From Cadophora sp. MPI-SDFR-AT-0126 (lineage: Eukaryota; Ascomycota; Leotiomycetes; Helotiales; Ploettnerulaceae): DNA of 64,000 nucleotides. Shown piece by piece: positions 11,322 to 58,491 of this stretch. A model generated the notes under the pieces. The model was not told the origin of the DNA. It saw nothing but the letters and a program-made list of their open reading frames with translations, and did not search any database. The stretch is taken from the NCBI GenBank assembly GCA_020747065.1, contig JAGMVK010000016.1, forward strand, positions 124,001 to 188,000, read 5' to 3'. Made by a program: the position numbers and the translations under genes. How positions within the stretch are numbered: the stretch's first letter is position 1; the number at the start of each line of letters is the position of its first letter.

Positions 11322-12251
11322 TCTTTACCCCTGTTCCTCTGTTTGGGGAATATTAATTTTGACTTGTGAGGAATGAGGATCTATCGTATTTGTTTTAATT
11401 TTAAAAAGAATGGCCTCTTTCAATATTGGAGATATGAAATGACAATATTAAGAGTAACAATAGTGAAAGTTCATAGTAGTAAAAGTGAATACATGCTGTC
11501 AACCTGTAACACGGACAATGGGAGAGCCTTCAACCATCACAACAAAGCAAGGAGCCAAGAAAATGCAGCTGCATTGATTTTATGGAATGAAAGTAAAGCC
11601 AGAGGATTTTATAAGTCCCATGAGAGAAGTAGTTTTATCTAACTCCATCGAATGTCTAACCTCGCTACCTCTCCCGATCTGCAAGCGAGTAAACAGGACT
11701 TTCGGCTTCAGACTTATGAATGGAAGGACGGTGACCACATGCTTCCTAAATGCCTATAAAAGCGGCTTTTAGTATTGCAATGTGCTTTGAATGTCACTTT
11801 GTGCCTCTGTGACTTTGGAATGTTGTAAACCTACGGACTCCTACGCACTCAAATTTCCAGCCTAGTGATCTGAATTGCTGCTGTACAGAGAGTATTTATT
11901 CTTTGCTATTTATTAGTCGCAGTCTTATAAGACAACTGACAAAGAACGCCCTTACCAAGTTTCGCTTCACTAGACTCGCATCACAATGCTATCTTGCAGA
12001 AGGCTTTTCTCGTGTAAAGAACCGCTCATCGAACTCTTTCTTATGACCCGCTTGGGCGACATGGATCCACCTCGGCAGGACTCAATCGAAAAGAAAATTT
12101 ACGACAACTGCCTTAGGACACAATAATCATAACCATCTTCTAATGAAAATGTGGGTAATTCAAGAGCATGAAACAAAAGAGCGCCAAAGTTCGAGAGGAT
12201 AAAGTCGAAGCTCAAAAACAAAAATTTTGCACCAGAACCTGGTCATTCATC
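11322..12251. other. Intergenic region
   Basis: About 930 bases between the Ash2 promoter and the tRNA gene. I see no coding gene; the right end carries the Pol III terminator listed separately. Confidence 0.45.
12214..12224 (-). terminator. Pol III T-run terminator of the tRNA-Asn gene
   Basis: On the minus strand two runs of five T separated by one G lie 28 nt past the discriminator base of the tRNA gene. A run of four or more T on the coding strand is the RNA polymerase III stop signal. Confidence 0.7.
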
Positions 12252-12388
12252 CTCCCTCGGGTGGGCTCGAACCACCAACCTCTCGATAGAGCTGTCATGT
12301 AACAGTCGAACCTGGAATGTCGTTAGGATTGATCGGAAACATGGTTGTGAAGAGTCACTTACGCGCTAGCCAATTGCGCCACGAGGGA
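12252..12388 (-). tRNA. tRNA-Asn(GUU) with a canonical 12-nt intron and an extra 51-nt spliceosomal-type insertion
   Basis: Read on the minus strand. Acceptor arm TCCCTCG (12388-12382) pairs fully with CGAGGGA (12259-12253); discriminator G at 12252, no encoded CCA. D arm GCGC/GCGC (12379-12363). Anticodon stem TTCGA (12310-12306) pairs with TCGAG (12286-12282); the loop reads C-T-GTT-A, then a 12-nt intron (12299-12288) at the universal 37/38 site. Variable loop AGGTT, T arm GGTGG/CCACC with loop TTCGAGC. So the exons form a clean cloverleaf with anticodon GTT. Between D-stem and base 26 sits a 51-nt insertion (12362-12312) starting GTAAGT, with TCCTAAC and ending CAG. A box and B box (GGTTCGAGCCC) are both intact. 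Whether it is a working gene or an interrupted one cannot be decided from sequence. Confidence 0.85.
12312..12362 (-). other. Spliceosomal-intron-like insertion inside tRNA-Asn
   Basis: 51 nt: donor GTAAGT at 12362, branch-like CTAAC around 12326-12322, acceptor CCAG at 12315-12312, followed by G (tRNA base 26). Length and signals match the mRNA introns of this window (43-55 nt). Exact removal restores the tRNA body without any leftover or missing base (one G is ambiguous at the ends). Confidence 0.7.
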
Positions 12389-18325: not shown

Positions 18326-21040
18326 ATGGTTCTTGTGCGGCAGAATCCTAATAATTTGATGGACATCGACCAGTTCATTAGCGAGGCCTCGCTCAAGGAG
18401 AAATTGTCCCTGACAGCCGGTAACGACTATCTTCTGGCTCTTAAAACATCGCCGGCGTGCTGTGGCTAATACGGAATGTGTCTTATTCAGGTCATGACTT
18501 TTGGCACACTGCTCCCGTGCCTCGTTTCTCGGTCCCGTCAATAAAATGCTCTGACGGCCCCAACGGCGTACGAGGATCCAAATTCTTCGACAGCGTTCCT
18601 GGCCTCTGCATCCCGTGTGGCTCTGGTCTAGGTGCAACATGGAATAAGCCACTCTTACAAGCTGCTGGTCTTCTTCTATCACAAGAGTGCAAAGTCAAAG
18701 GCGCGCACTCCTGGCTCGGACCGACAGTCAACATGCACCGGTCGCCTTTAAACGGTCGTGGCTTTGAGAGTTTCTCTGAGGACCCATTCCTGAGCGGAAT
18801 GTTGGCAGCGAAGATAATTGAGGGCGTGCAAAGTGGTGGAAGCGCAGCAGTTTTGAAGCATTTCGTTGCAAACGATCAAGAGACAGAAAAGAGAAGTGTT
18901 GATGTGGTAATTTCCGATCGTGCGTTGAGAGAGATATATCTTCTGCCATTTCAGCTGGCTATCAAATATGGCAGACCAGATGCAGTCATGTCATCATACA
19001 ATAAAGTCCAGGGAGTGCATTGCTCTGAAAGTAAAAACTTGCTACGGGATATCTTGAGGACAGAATGGGGTTTCGATGGCTTGATTATGAGTGATTGGTG
19101 GGTCGTCTGTCAACGACGGAGGCTCGGCTAATGTGTTTACTTAGGTTTGGGACGTACTCGACCGATGCCGCATTCGCAGCAGGACTGGATCTCGAAATGC
19201 CGGGGCCAAGTTTGCATCGATCGACGACAGCCCAACTGGCTCTTTCAACAGGCAAAGTTCAGATGAAAGATGTCGATGCAGCTGCTTGCAATATTCTCCG
19301 ATTTGTTCAGAAACTATCAAAACAAGAAGTCGCCAGTCAAGAAGGCACGAGGGATTTCCCTGAAGATAGAGAACTCAACCGCCAACTTGCGACTGAAAGT
19401 ATTGTCCTGCTCAAAAATGACAGAGGGGTACTGCCTCTTGACCCCGACTGTGGCAGTCTTGCTTTGATTGGACCAAACGTCAAAAATGCGGCTGCATGCG
19501 GAGGAGGAAGTGCAAGTTTGCATCCGTACTACACAACATCTGCGTACGAAGGAATCGTTTCGCAGATTAAACCTGGAACAGAAATAAGGTATGAAGCAGG
19601 TGTTTACAGCCAATCACTTCTACCTCCGTTGAACAAGAACAATGCAATAAACGAGGATGGCCTCCCAGGCGCCACAATCGACTTCTACCATGAGCCATAC
19701 TCCGTCCCAGGCCGAATACCTTTTGACGGGACCACGGTCAAGGAAACCGTGTACCAGCTAATGGACTACAAACATGCCCAAAACGGCGAGACTTTCTATA
19801 TATCCATGCGGGGAACTTTCATCCCAGAGTGTTCGGGAACTTACGAATTTGGCCTGGCATCTTTTGGCGTTTCGGATTTGTATATTGACGATGAGCTAGT
19901 GATTGACAATTCAACCGCTCAAGAACCAGGTGGAATGTTCTTTGGGAATGGCTCGAAAGAAGTGAGGGCTACGTTTGAAATGGAACAAGGGAAGACATAT
20001 AAATTCCGAATGGAAGCTGGGAGCGCATTGACATCGAAGCTGTTGGGTGGTATGATTGATTTGCCAGGCGGTGCATGTCGACTGGGGGCCTGTTTGAAGC
20101 TGGACCCTGAAGAGGGGATCCGAAGAGCTGTTGAAGTGGCCAAGAGCTGCAAAAATGTTATCGTTGTTGCAGGCCTGAACGTAAGCATTTCCCACATATC
20201 TGCTACGACTAAATTAACCAGACAGGGCGATTACGAGAAAGAAGGTCGGGATCGTAAGACCATGGACATGCCAGAAGGCTACGATGCTCTGATCAGTGCA
20301 GTGCTCGCAGTCCAGCCTTCCGCAATCATCGTCACGCAAGCCGGGACTCCCGTCTCAATGCCTTGGCGCTCCGAAGCACATTCAATGATCCACAGTTGGT
20401 ACGGTGGCAACGAAAGTGGTAACGCCCTCGCGGATGTGATATTTGGAAAAACGAATCCCAGCGGGAAGCTGCCAATGACATTTCCAGATCGACTGGAAAA
20501 TACCGCTAGTTTCCTGACATTTGGGAGTGACAATGGCAAGGCGAGGTACGATGAAGGCATCTTTGTTGGATACAGATACCACGATACGGTTGGTCGAGGG
20601 GTTGCGTTTCCCTTTGGGTAAGTCGGCCTCCGAAGAAGTTGAGTGCAAATGCTGACTGTGCCAGACATGGATTGTCCTACACGACGTTCGCCCTGCGAGA
20701 CCTCATAGTATCCTCGGAAGAGGTTCAGGTGGTGATTGAGAATATTGGATGCAGAGCAGGCTCAGAAGTACTGCAACTCTACATCTCAGCCGACCGTGAA
20801 GTTTCAAGATTTAAACGGCCGGTGAAGGAATTGAAGGGGTTTGAGAAGGTGACATTGGAACCGCAGCAAGTCATGACCGTCACATTTCCGATCGACAAGT
20901 ACAGTACTGCAGTTTGGGACGAGTATAGAAATGCATGGGCTTGTGAGAGTGGACAGCATACCGCGTTGGTATTTGGAGGGCAACAGTGCTTGACAGGCAC
21001 ATTTGAGATTGGCAAGACGACATACTGGAATGGGTTGTAA
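18326..21040 (+). CDS. GH3 beta-glucosidase with PA14 domain, intracellular type
   Basis: Join 18326-18419, 18491-19097, 19145-20180, 20226-20617, 20665-21040; 834 residues, the usual size for fungal PA14-containing GH3 enzymes. Order: GH3 N-terminal barrel (KCSDGPNGVRG; nucleophile Asp233 in IMSDWFG, completed by splicing), GH3 C-terminal domain (ATESIVLLKND), inserted PA14 domain at about 390-540, then the rest of the C-domain (HSWYGGNESGNALADV) and a fibronectin-III-like end (VIENIGCRAGSEVLQLY). There is no signal peptide, so it should act in the cytosol on imported cellobiose or aryl-beta-glucosides. Intron 3 (20181-20225, 45 nt) is in frame without a stop, so retention would add 15 residues. 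Confidence 0.92.
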
Positions 21041-40844: not shown

Positions 40845-42508
40845 CTACTTCAATGACCGCTTTCTGCATCCCTTGCCCTGCCAGATCATGAGAATGCCTG
40901 ACAAGAACACCGCCAAGCATAGAAAACCCATGGTGAGAAAGGCATCTCGAAGACCGCTATGAACGATCCACGGCTCACTGGCAAATACCATAGCACAACC
41001 GATGATGTTACGGATGGTAATAACCGCGGCCGATGCTGGACCTGTTCGAGTTGGGTAGGCTTCTGTCACGTAGCCAAGCGCAACTTCTCCGGCGATCGGA
41101 ATTCCAGCTCCAATCAACCCCATACCAAAAACAGGTGCAATCCAGTGAAGACCCGCTGCAGCTCCTGGGCCATACAAAAACAGACCAGCAGCCATGATGG
41201 GCCCTCCGATGAAAACGGAGTAGATGCGGGACTCAGGTTCCATGATGCCGTTATTTCTTTTGGCTCGCCAGACCATGAAACGATCGGTACCGGCACCGCC
41301 AGTATAGAGGATTAGAACTCCGCCGATAAGGGGAGAGATGTTGGTCAACCCTACAGCGGTGAAGGAGAAGTTGTAGCCAAAGGCAGGATTTTGAAACACA
41401 GTGTTGGCAGAAGTGGACATGACCACGAGCCATGCAATCGCAAAGCCATAGACGCATCCAGACCATATGACAATGGGGTGGAGCAACAATCTAGCTGGCT
41501 CAAGTATGGCCATCAACAATGACTTTTCCGTCGGAAGTATGGTAATGAGTCGGACTTTAGCCCAGTAGCTTTTCTTGGATGTGGGAGGTGGTAGCTCAGA
41601 TGTCATATTGCCAGTGCTGTGTACTTGTCTGTTGAATGCTGTCTCTTCAAGTCCGAAAAAGATGATGATCGCAATCATGCCCATGAAGATGGCATAGAAC
41701 CCCAGCACCCATCGCCAACCCATCGATTGTATAACGAAGCCAGCGGCAATTGGGCCAAGGTATGATCTGGTCCAAGTCAGCAATGAAACATATTCAAAAA
41801 CAATGCTCAGAAGCATTTACCCAGTTGTAACACCAAGAATATACCACGATAAACCAAAGCCTCTGTGGTGGACGAAGAATTGGTCATCAACAGTAATGGC
41901 AGGGAGTTGTTCGAAAGGACCAGCTGCAATGCCCATGAGATAACGTGATCCGTTGTATACAGATTTTGATGTAGCATAAGCTCCCGTGATTTGGGAAGCG
42001 ACGGTCAAAATTGCGGAGAGGAGATAAACAGGACGACGTCCAAACTTCATCGCCTGTCGAGGGAATAAAATCAGCATTCGGTGCCCAATCTTGCTCGGCT
42101 CATGAGCCGTAGACTTACCAATGGACTCCAGATCAAGTTGCTGATGCCAATAAGGAGAAGACCAACAGCCGTACCAACGTTGAGATATGCAACACTTGCA
42201 CCAAACTCAGGTATCAATGCTCCGTATAAGAGCCCACCAGTCAAAGTAAGGGCAGCACACATGAAAGAATACAAGCAAACTATGCCCAGGGATAAATACT
42301 TGCGCAGAGATGACCATCGCAAGGGATCATCTGGGCTGTCAGAAGGCTGTGGGATGAGGACCAAATCATTGCCCTCGTGCTCGGAGTTAAGAAGATGTTG
42401 TTTGTCGACAAGAAGACGAGTTCCAGGGTACTCTTCAAACCGAGCATCTGGAAGTGATACCTGCGTTACTGTAGTAGAGCGCTGGAGGGGCGATGACTTC
42501 TTATCCAT
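40845..42508 (-). CDS. MFS transporter (drug:H+ antiporter-like), amidase block
   Basis: Complement join 40845-41766, 41821-42053, 42119-42508; 514 residues. The N-terminus carries DSPDDPLRWSSLRKY as in the transporter at 32.5 kb, so the two belong to the same fungal group. MKFGRRPVYLLSAI follows helix 2; 12 helices are expected. Introns are 54 and 65 nt. It is divergent from the amidase across 0.8 kb of promoter, which suggests uptake of the amide substrate or export of a product. The C-terminal cytosolic tail is short and basic. Confidence 0.87.
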
Positions 42509-55858: not shown

Positions 55859-56319
55859 CGAGGTCGGGCTCATTATTCGGTGTCGTTCTTTGCCTTCAAA
55901 GGTCCTCAAAAGGGTTTGGGTGGTATTGCAACGTTTTGGCAACTATCAATTCTGTTGCGACTTGGATTAGAAAGCTCCGAGTACGTGTTGTATTATATAT
56001 GAAGCTCTTGTGACACAAGAGTCAATGCTGCAGAGTGGCTCCCAACCCTCTCTTCCATTTTCTCTTTTCTTCTACCTTAAAGCGCGATGCGTTTGCCAAA
56101 CTCGAAAAATTTGTTGCCACACAAATGGAGGTCCAGGCACACGGAGAGCACCTTGCTAGACCGAGTTATGCGAATTCGACATACGATGACTTTATCGTCA
56201 AGCAGCGCGAAATTCGAGAAAGATATTTCGACTGGTGCCCGTCCTCGTTTCAAAGGACACTCGCTCCCACTTTCTTAGGGTTCTGCGTGTTGCCCAGTAT
56301 TGAACAACAGTCTTAGACT
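55859..56319. other. Intergenic region with an unrecognised short open frame
   Basis: A frame from about 56035 to 56316 reads helical text (KRDAFAKLEKFVATQMEV) without an ATG start and without a known domain. It may be an exon fragment. Confidence 0.35.
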
Positions 56320-56416
56320 TGCAAATGCATGATACTGATTTGCTTCTATCTCATCTTCGGACTTCAATTTAGGGAATTCATCATCGCGAGGATGAGATTG
56401 CGATGCTACGCGGCCA
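56320..56416 (-). pseudogene. 97-bp inverted fragment of the coiled-coil gene family
   Basis: Reverse complement matches 48694-48790 of copy A with about six differences in 97 bases. Differences are mild at protein level (DDEFPKLKSEDEIEANQYH against DDEFTKIKSEDEIEANQYH), so it comes from a family member that was coding. It lies 4 bases from the TA target of the TIR element. Confidence 0.75.
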
Positions 56417-56422
56417 GCTGTA

Positions 56423-56469
56423 ACGTCTAACCCCCCCCTTCCGGCCACCCTTTTACACCAAAAAACGCA
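56423..56469 (+). repeat. Left terminal inverted repeat
   Basis: About 47 bp; pairs with 57141-57205 in inverse orientation. Core blocks TTCCGGCCACCC and TTACACCAAAAAA. Confidence 0.8.
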
Positions 56470-57140
56470 AAAACTCGTCGCTTTTAATAATTAATATCTT
56501 TATTTTTTATTAATAAAAAAAGCCTAAAATTAAAGATTTATATTATTTATTACTCGGGCTTTAATATTCCGAAGTGTTATTAATTTCATATTACGTAATA
56601 TTACGAATTAAGAATTTAAAGTAAAGAAATTTCTCGCTAACAAATTTAGTGTAAAATCGAATTTTTAAATTTCTTTAATAACTTTTGTAATTATTATTAG
56701 TTTTTTTTAAAACTTTTAATAAAGTTATATTTTATATATAACCTTACGATTTCTAAGTTTAAAGAAAATTCTATTAATAGTAATTTTATAATTAAGTAAA
56801 TTATCAAGTCCTATACAAAATATTTATATGAGAAAAATTAATTACTTAATTAAAAAATAATTACTAATACATTTCTATTAAAACTTTCTAAAACTTTAGA
56901 TTTATATATAAACCTTCTATTATATAAATTTCAAGTACTTTTATTTATTTATTAAAAAGCTATTTATAAGTGATTTTTGACGTTTTTTGTATATAAAAAC
57001 TAGGATTTAAGATTACATAATAATTTACAAAGGAAATTACAAATCGCTTCGTAAATCTAATCACTTAAGTATAAGAATTGTAAATATAAAAAAAGTATTT
57101 AATATTATTAATTAGTTGTGTTTTTATTAATACCTCAAAA

Positions 57141-57205
57141 TCGCGTTTTTTTGGTGTAAAGGGTGGCCGGAAGGTGGGGGTGGCCGGAAGGGGGGGGTGG
57201 GACGT
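57141..57205 (-). repeat. Right terminal inverted repeat with internal duplication
   Basis: About 65 bp; same blocks as the left end, but CCTTCCGGCCA occurs twice in tandem, which explains the extra ~17 bp. Confidence 0.8.
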
Positions 57206-57207
57206 TA

Positions 57208-57705
57208 GTATCGGCTTCAAGGTGGCAGACTGGAGGTCAAAATTACAGTCTGGCGGGAGAGATTCCCGTGGTGATGAGTGAAAATTCAATTCACTACCGA
57301 AACTTGTTGCTAGCGTTGGCGCATTTAAAAGATGAATAAATGAAGGTGATGGGCGGCTCCGTAAGTGCTGCTTAACCCGGCAAGTTAGCCAAGAAACGTC
57401 ATGCTGTTAGCGAGGTCAGGCAAAAGTAAATAAAGAGTGAATTCGTACGCCACAAACACAAAAACTCGTCGTTGCAGGGCCGCAGGGCCCTGCAACGCCT
57501 AGATTGGCTCTTTTGTCAGGCTCTAGCGTCAAGCACTTCTACAAAAGAGACCTGCTGTGATTTTCTTTCCTGAACTCCAAACCACAAACTGCCTCATCAA
57601 CAAACTTTTTGCGCCCCCCCAGCCTCATCCACACAAGATCATACCTTCAAACTCACAAATCCATCATCAGAATAGATACTCTACTATCCAATCAACCAAG
57701 AAGTC
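57208..57705. other. Intergenic region, promoter of coiled-coil copy B
   Basis: About 500 bases. It contains the hairpin at 57471-57496, a C-run near 57616-57622 and the pyrimidine-rich leader of the next gene. Confidence 0.4.
57471..57496. repeat. Perfect GC-rich inverted repeat (hairpin)
   Basis: 11-bp arms GTTGCAGGGCC and GGCCCTGCAAC separated by GCAG. No T-run follows. The preceding AAAAACTCGTCG also occurs inside the left end of the TIR element (near 56469-56480). Confidence 0.6.
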
Positions 57706-58491
57706 ATGGTGAGCACCATCTATTTCTTAGTATTGATTAAGGATAACTGACAACACACAGAAAAAGCAAACTATCGCGAGCTTTGACTTTAGTGGCAGCA
57801 GCACGGAACAGCACGACGTCATGATCAGAGATGAGGAGAAGCCTAGTACCACCAACACCATGGGCCGTAGGTATAAGCTGTTTTCGAGATTTGCAGAGGA
57901 AGTCCGACAGGCCGCGACACCAAGAGGCGAACAGGTCCATGCTGCAGGTAGCGCAAACTCTCCTTAATCGGCATCATTGTCGTTGCTAACATATCCATAG
58001 GTTCTTCAGATATCCTCGCTCAACATCATGATGAAAAGTTAGACAAGGCTAGATCGATGGTGGCAGAAAAGCGAAGACGAGTTATCGATGACTTGATTCA
58101 TCCTCCAGCAAAGCGTGCTGCCCTGCCTCCTATTTCGTTTCCACCAACTGCAACACCAAGAAAACGTCATATCATCTCTCAACTCGCTGAGGATAACAGC
58201 ACTCTTGAAGATGACAACGAAGAGTTGAAGAAGGAAGTCCGCACTCTTAGAGGTGATAAGGAAGAATTGAAGAAGGAAGTCCAGCGTCTGAAGACACTTC
58301 AAAATATCCCAAAGCATCATCCGCATGATGTAGATTTGGTCAAGACACTACGATCAACTATTCAATATCAGGCGTCGACGATTGACAGAATCCATCGAGA
58401 GATTAGTGACATGGCTGAGACGTCCAAGGACATCACGACTTGGCTCAACGAGATCGCAACAGACGACACCACCAAGCCTACTGATACATAG
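57706..58491 (+). CDS. Coiled-coil protein of a local family, copy B
   Basis: Join 57706-57708, 57761-57947, 58001-58491; 226 residues. The first exon is just the ATG, followed at once by the donor GTGAGC. After a polar N-terminus there is a basic patch (MVAEKRRRVIDDLIHPPAKR, possible nuclear signal) and a strong coiled coil (EDDNEELKKEVRTLRGDKEE; two similar heptad blocks LKKEV-TLRG / LKKEVQRLK). It ends TTKPTDT. Spliced UTR units follow at 58519-58568 and 58625-58689, as after copy A. Function unknown; a small nuclear or scaffold protein is possible. Confidence 0.65.

Follow-up and report, generated by a model that had tools for sequence, protein, structure and literature searches.

Candidate spliceosomal introns in nuclear tRNA genes of a Cadophora species, among them every tRNA-Asn gene found

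The 64-kb window, that is, the whole stretch of DNA analysed, belongs to the root-dwelling fungus Cadophora sp. MPI-SDFR-AT-0126 (Leotiomycetes, Helotiales, Ploettnerulaceae), whose genome assembly comprises 53,960,497 bases in 38 contigs. On the minus strand of the window lies a nuclear tRNA-Asn(GUU) gene whose three exons are separated by two introns (Table 1). An earlier note on this DNA had described such a gene with a 12-nt intron at 37/38, and this was confirmed: the exons could be paired by hand (acceptor stem 7/7, D stem 4/4, anticodon stem 5/5 with one G-U, and T stem 5/5) and a 74-nt tRNA-Asn(GUU) was obtained when both introns were taken out. Reading and parsing of the gene also bore out the 51-nt block described between bases 25 and 26, with GTAAGT, CTAAC and CAG in this order, whose removal restores the tRNA. 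Since the ViennaRNA minimum-energy fold of the unmodified mature tRNA-Asn was different from the cloverleaf, the stems rest on complementarity. The ordinary 12-nt intron could pair with the end of exon 2 over 6 bp.

Both internal promoter boxes, the A and B boxes, were intact in the sequence, in agreement with the earlier note. The T-run terminator mentioned there corresponds to a candidate, the T5 run nearest to the gene, whose first T lies 28 nt beyond the last base of the gene, a greater distance than in the two other copies of tRNA-Asn described below. No tRNA was called in the window by ARAGORN with bacterial settings or by Rfam at the gathering threshold, and the only result of a permissive Rfam search of 401 bases was a sub-threshold snoRNA match on the opposite strand, regarded as chance. 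Elsewhere in the window, the G+C content showed a dip at 56001-58000 (0.375, versus 0.456-0.507 in the remaining 2-kb steps).

Table 1. Parts of the tRNA-Asn(GUU) gene, mRNA introns used for comparison, and other interrupted tRNA and U6 loci. Positions given without a contig are those of the window.
Feature	Position	Strand	Basis
Nuclear tRNA-Asn(GUU) gene, 3 exons and 2 introns	12252..12388	minus	read directly and parsed
Exon 1, 26 nt, tRNA bases 1-25: acceptor 5' strand, bases 8-9, D arm	12363..12388	minus	parsed
A box, TGGCGCAATTGG	12370..12381	minus	read from sequence
Extra 51-nt intron of spliceosomal type, tRNA bases 25/26	12312..12362	minus	parsed; splice signals
5' splice site GTAAGT	12357..12362	minus	read from insert
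Branch-site motif CTAAC, 11 nt from branch A to intron end	12322..12326	minus	
3' splice site CAG	12312..12314	minus	
Exon 2, 12 nt, bases 26-37: base 26, anticodon stem 5' strand, anticodon GTT	12300..12311	minus	
Ordinary 12-nt tRNA intron at 37/38	12288..12299	minus	parsed
Exon 3, 36 nt: base 38, anticodon stem 3' strand, variable loop, T arm, acceptor 3' strand, G73	12252..12287	minus	
B box, GGTTCGAGCCC	12263..12273	minus	read from sequence
T5 run, candidate Pol III terminator	12220..12224	minus	
Second T5 run	12214-12218	minus	
mRNA introns, first protein	18420-18490, 19098-19144, 20181-20225, 20618-20664	plus	mapped protein
mRNA introns, second protein	42054-42118, 41767-41820	minus	mapped protein
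tRNA-Met (elongator), 53-nt insert at 46/47	C18		
tRNA-Thr(AGU), L095, 56-nt insert at 15/16	C4, about 1625438-1625565		pattern scan
tRNA-Ile(AAU), 60-nt insert at 6/7, acceptor stem	C18		
tRNA-Ile(AAU), 51-nt insert at 6/7, acceptor stem	C1		
tRNA-Ile(AAU), 60-nt insert at 5/6, acceptor stem	C13		
tRNA-Arg(UCU), 56-nt insert at 6/7	C13		
tRNA-Pro(CGG), L096, inserts of 50, 47 and 49 nt at 5/6, 27/28 and 46/47	C8:404753-404996	minus	
U6, L087, one 51-nt intron of spliceosomal type after GGTCAAT	C38:2221085-2221190 and upstream		
U6, L090, two introns of spliceosomal type, 55 and 51 nt	C11:486589-486742 and upstream		match under family cut-off

Three tRNA-Asn loci were found in the 54 Mb of the genome, the counts of the genome searches being lower bounds, and all three carried an insert at the same base. 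The 35-nt 3' half of the tRNA, with up to three mismatches, had three matches genome-wide, every one of them interrupted (reversed control, 0), and the 18-nt 5' piece had three exact matches, at the same three loci. With two or three mismatches this piece gave 26 further matches (9 in the control), none of them beside an Asn 3' half. Exon pieces at the three loci only were obtained when the mature 74-nt sequence was used as the query with E up to 10, the 5' half being listed for just one of the three. Neither the 3' half, the 5' piece nor the mature query found an uninterrupted tRNA-Asn gene in the assembly. The extra inserts measured 51, 52 and 50 nt and the ordinary 37/38 introns 12, 11 and 18 nt; the exons and the mature 74-nt product were identical in all three loci, and the 1.5-kb flanks were unrelated, save for a weak 22-nt match between two of them.

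Asn codons could not be read without their tRNA, and since every Asn locus found carries the insert, these results show, within the limits of the search, that some process must take the insert out. The earlier note had left open a dead gene with intact copies elsewhere, or else a fresh insertion event. Because no uninterrupted tRNA-Asn was found, we rejected both the dead gene and the fresh single insertion; the three loci were interrupted at the same base and had identical exons, and the splice signals were present in all of them. A tRNA pseudogene was rejected on the grounds that the exons were not decayed and no intact Asn copy was found, and an assembly artefact because the same insert was present at three loci with different flanks. 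The near-identical copy of the 51-nt block that would indicate an introner-like element, another suggestion of that note, was not seen in the genome search: a 171-nt query with the Asn insert matched the three Asn loci only (the other two being 81% and 77% alike), and a 186-nt Met query matched only the two Met loci. For the Asn and Met inserts, an introner-like element was rejected on this basis.

In order to evaluate the splice signals against chance, fixed slots of 50-53 nt along either strand of the window were examined for GTRNG at the start, CTRAY 5-25 nt before the end, and a final YAG. All three signals were present in 14 of 511,588 slots (2.7e-5), with the real mRNA introns left in, and in four of the four inserts tested (three Asn and one Met). 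The boundaries of the Asn insert are fixed by the tRNA to within one base, and this ambiguity allowed GT-AG ends in one register only. When the three Asn inserts were compared without gaps, the first five, the last five and three branch-motif columns were identical; the other columns agreed in 2/20 cases at the 5' side and 1/17 at the 3' side, where about 8% agreement is expected by chance. Gapped pairs had 35/58, 35/57 and 39/53 columns in common. The alignment score of the inner parts was reached by 103 of 500 shuffles for the window copy and the C11 copy, which is shuffle-like, by 44 of 500 for the window copy and the C37 copy, slightly better than shuffles, and by 3 of 500 for C11 and C37, clearly better than shuffles. 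On the basis of this column agreement and these scores, the Asn introns look homologous and not recent.

Besides Asn, seven interrupted tRNA genes were found (Met, Thr, three Ile, Arg and Pro), giving a tally of 12 introns in 10 of the 57 tRNA loci met with, which are not a census: they consist of 48 matches of a tRNA list, from 62 candidates scored among 1988, plus three Asn, Thr, Pro, three Asp and one Glu, with one unassigned locus (C23:2006314) left out. The tRNA base numbers of the insert sites in Table 1 are our reading of the parses. Two elongator tRNA-Met genes were found, and the C12 gene has identical exons but no insert. After removal of the inserts, the products of the C18 and C1 Ile genes were exactly that of the uninterrupted Ile gene L041, and the C13 product differed from it by a compensatory second acceptor pair; a reading of two Ile loci (L072 and L081) as tRNA-derived pseudogenes was rejected, as they parse as tRNA once the insert is removed. 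The 72-nt product of the C4 Thr gene had four base differences from the uninterrupted copy on C2, and these amounted to two compensatory acceptor pairs (6-66 and 7-65, in the numbering of the 72-nt product). Such compensatory changes in the interrupted copies of Thr and Ile suggest that these genes work. The Pro gene, localised on the window's own contig and outside the window, contains an ordinary 26-nt intron in addition to its three inserts, so that a gene of 244 nt would yield a tRNA of 72 nt; ARAGORN recognised it as tRNA-Pro(CGG) after the three removals.

The insert sites vary between tRNAs, being found in the acceptor stem, in the D-loop, at 25/26, at 27/28 and in the variable loop, and for Met, Thr, Ile and Arg, uninterrupted genes with the same anticodon were also found. 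Judging from these sequences, intron gain or loss has happened repeatedly, because the sites differ and genes of the same anticodon exist without an insert. As a separate observation, the A box of the Thr gene is split by the intron, whose first bases restore the match to TRGYNNANNNG, the A-box consensus.

Removal of putative introns was then applied to all loci fetched and to the window, where 50 distinct B-box sites had a 5/5 T stem. With parser rules that were written after the first cases were known, 31 of these sites parsed as tRNA unaided, nine further sites did so after GT/CTRAY/AG pieces were removed (34 pieces offered), and ten parsed neither with nor without removal. No tRNA was restored with 20 scrambled signal sets, for which a mean of 9.5 pieces were offered versus 34 for the real signals. 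The Thr gene is outside the nine restored sites, as its T stem has fewer than five pairs. A removal run based on ARAGORN had no Asn loci in its list, from which a shared-end filter may have dropped them; the Ser locus L073 of that list was not counted, since it parses as tRNA without removal.

Scanning the genome for CTAAC, AG and a B box in succession gave 19 matches, versus 32 in the reversed control. These comprised one Thr, one Pro, three tRNA-Asp whose only intron is the ordinary one, one tRNA-like sequence and 13 matches not recognised as tRNA. The tRNA-like sequence (L103, C23:2006314) has A-box and B-box-like parts and was read by ARAGORN as Val with an intron, its anticodon arm not being assignable. 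Six of the 19 matches (L092, L093, L097, L099, L100 and L105), at different places, had TGTCGGTTCAATACCGAATATAAGCC...AAGCTTGAT in common, and this stretch resembles the end of a dispersed repeat. The CTGAC version of the scan gave 27 matches, versus 38 in the control, and among them were the C11 tRNA-Asn, one tRNA-Lys and one tRNA-Gln already on the tRNA list, and one tRNA-Glu with an ordinary intron; for the remaining 23 the assessment was based on nothing but the matched letters. The exon-intron join had no exact match in viral contigs and none in prokaryote genome contigs.

The 12 tRNA inserts, of 47-60 nt, all had GT...AG ends, which in the case of Ile, Arg and Pro is not independent evidence because it was a condition of the removal test. 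Nine began with GTAAG and the others with GTATG, GTACG and GTGCG, and the 3' ends were CAG in eight, TAG in two and AAG in two (Arg and the third Pro insert). A CTRAY branch motif was present in every insert (CTAAC in 10, CTGAC in one and CTAAT in one), 9-17 nt separating the branch A from the end of the insert; here CTAAC had been required by the scan that yielded Thr and Pro, and CTRAY by the removal test. As a yardstick, a small one of six introns from two genes, we used the mRNA introns obtained on the same contig by mapping two annotated proteins. They were 45-71 nt long, three of the six started with GTAAG, five had CTRAY and one CTAAA, and 9-21 nt followed the branch A, so that the length class shared with nearby mRNA introns, as claimed in the earlier note, held for the whole set of tRNA inserts, whose 5' splice sites were likewise comparable to those of the mRNA introns. 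TTTT was absent from all 15 tRNA and U6 introns, which lends weak support, since 84% of 51-nt slots also lack it. With respect to position 37/38, the extra Asn insert lies elsewhere, at 25/26, and the separate 12-nt intron lies on it. Group I and group II introns have a catalytic core of some hundreds of bases; a self-splicing intron of these groups was rejected given the size of the inserts, and there was no Rfam match to one at the gathering threshold in the window.

Introns of this type were also present in U6 genes. Four U6 matches were found in the genome, one of them under the family cut-off, and two contained one and two such introns, respectively (Table 1), at positions set by comparison with the yeast U6 sequence. 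The two other matches, both on C38, were one without an intron and one diverged.

Taken together, these results strongly support the idea of a spliceosomal-type intron lying beside the normal tRNA intron, as the earlier note had proposed, for the same base is interrupted and the signals are kept in all three Asn loci, and seven more tRNA genes are affected. The block is very probably a U2-type spliceosomal intron in an active nuclear tRNA-Asn gene, and one of at least 12 in the tRNA genes of this fungus. From the signals and from the precedent of fission yeast U6, we infer that the insert is removed by the spliceosome. Transcription by Pol III would be directed by the intact A and B boxes of the gene and would end at a T run; in the nucleus, U1 would then recognise GTAAGT, the adenosine of CTAAC would attack, and the spliceosome would join base 25 to base 26, while the 37/38 intron would be cut out through the known pathway of tRNA splicing endonuclease and ligase. 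Making tRNA-Asn and several other tRNAs thus probably needs two different splicing machines. It also seems likely, on the same sequence evidence, that the whole essential tRNA-Asn family is spliceosome-dependent, that single precursors are cut by two unrelated machines (with three spliceosomal excisions and one by endonuclease in the case of Pro), and that the Pol III genes of this lineage (tRNA-Asn, Met, Thr, Ile, Arg and Pro, and U6) generally took up spliceosomal introns, which would constitute a new class of nuclear tRNA introns missed by standard tRNA finders.

Spliceosomes are described in passages of PMC8527467 as acting, as a rule, on Pol II transcripts, and the introns might be spliceosomal while the spliced molecules came from Pol II read-through transcripts and not from Pol III. 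This we consider unlikely, because each of the 10 genes keeps a T arm resembling a B box and is followed, no more than 30 nt downstream, by the start of a run of four or more T, the three Asn loci share no flank, and the A box lies by eye whole within exon sequence in all but the Thr gene. Production by Pol III followed by spliceosomal removal is the reading we prefer, and it has also to be weighed against removal of both kinds of intron by the tRNA splicing endonuclease, the splice-like signals being incidental. Introns away from 37/38 with a bulge-helix-bulge motif occur in algal and archaeal tRNAs, as in the red alga Cyanidioschyzon and in archaea, according to passages of PMC3978253 and PMC3400036, and three of the four central-helix positions could be paired, with G-U allowed, in all five inserts tested. 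However, the full 4-bp central helix with both flanking helices was found in none of the five, the strict motif (two 3-nt bulges and a 4-bp helix) being absent from them and equally from three ordinary control introns, and the predicted folds of the three Asn precursors had no obvious common junction structure. Because the ordinary introns also lacked the motif, the case against the endonuclease rests on the splice signals: GT, CTRAY at 9-17 nt and AG are present in 12 of 12 inserts and would be needless for an endonuclease, and scrambled signals restored no tRNA. These make the endonuclease a less likely remover of the extra inserts, and that it handles both kinds with the signals incidental is very improbable. 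Lastly, that the interrupted loci are dead, and that an intact tRNA-Asn is absent from the assembly or has escaped the searches through divergence, is scarcely credible: it could draw on search counts that are lower bounds and on a mature query that listed the 5' half at one locus of three, but it faces identical exons in loci with unrelated flanks, the lack of any other match with the 3' half, the 5' piece or the mature query, an assembly of 54 Mb in only 38 contigs, and the stem pairs that changed in a compensatory way in the interrupted Thr and Ile genes.

To our knowledge, the introns of eukaryotic nuclear tRNAs are described as lying at 37/38 and being cut by a protein endonuclease. If our reading is true, two rules would be broken, namely this one and the rule that ties spliceosomes to Pol II, and the decoding of Asn codons would be tied to the activity of the spliceosome. 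The fungus would then offer a natural system for testing to what extent splicing requires Pol II, and its pairs of genes with and without the intron (Met, Thr and Ile) could allow intron gain to be studied where the structure of the RNA dictates the exact spliced product. In genomes of this kind, tRNA finders may report broken tRNAs or the lack of tRNA-Asn.

In titles, abstracts and passages of the open-access literature, no report was found of a spliceosomal intron in a nuclear tRNA gene, in line with the earlier statement that none is established in a Pol III tRNA; passages of PMC8216456, PMC13130702, PMC6461891, PMC11782384 and PMC3488318 hold no report of spliceosomal introns in tRNA. What appears to be new, then, is a known kind of intron in a class of genes for which no such report was found, and a second splicing system acting on the same precursor. 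The ordinary eukaryotic 37/38 intron is present in the same gene and differs from the 51-nt insert in position, length and signals. Extra introns in the D arm, the variable region and elsewhere, sometimes several per gene, are shared with Cyanidioschyzon, nucleomorphs and archaea; those introns differ in having a bulge-helix-bulge motif and being removed by the tRNA endonuclease, as passages of PMC3978253 describe.

Parallels are also offered by other structured RNAs. Passages of PMC5832005 describe canonical introns in fungal U3 snoRNA genes, with paralogues in one Leotiomycete genome that differ in their presence, and spliceosomal introns are known in fungal U2 genes from passages of PMC2586383. 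The tRNA introns resemble those of U3 in being of the canonical fungal type, in a structured RNA and variably present among copies; unlike tRNA-Asn, U3 is a capped snoRNA with upstream promoter elements and one splicing system. A spliceosomal intron of a lichen-fungus rRNA was removed in yeast from Pol I transcripts, according to passages of PMC8527467, and here, too, introns of spliceosomal type would be removed from an RNA that is not a Pol II product, although the host RNA is a tRNA and not an rRNA. A further likeness is with the U6 gene of fission yeast (Schizosaccharomyces pombe), which carries an mRNA-type intron, for which reverse splicing near the catalytic bases of U6 has been offered as the source (passages of PMC10484740). 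As in Schizosaccharomyces U6, a short spliceosomal intron would interrupt a Pol III gene for an untranslated RNA; unlike U6, which is part of the spliceosome, a tRNA is not a component of it, has internal promoter boxes, and may hold a second intron for another enzyme.
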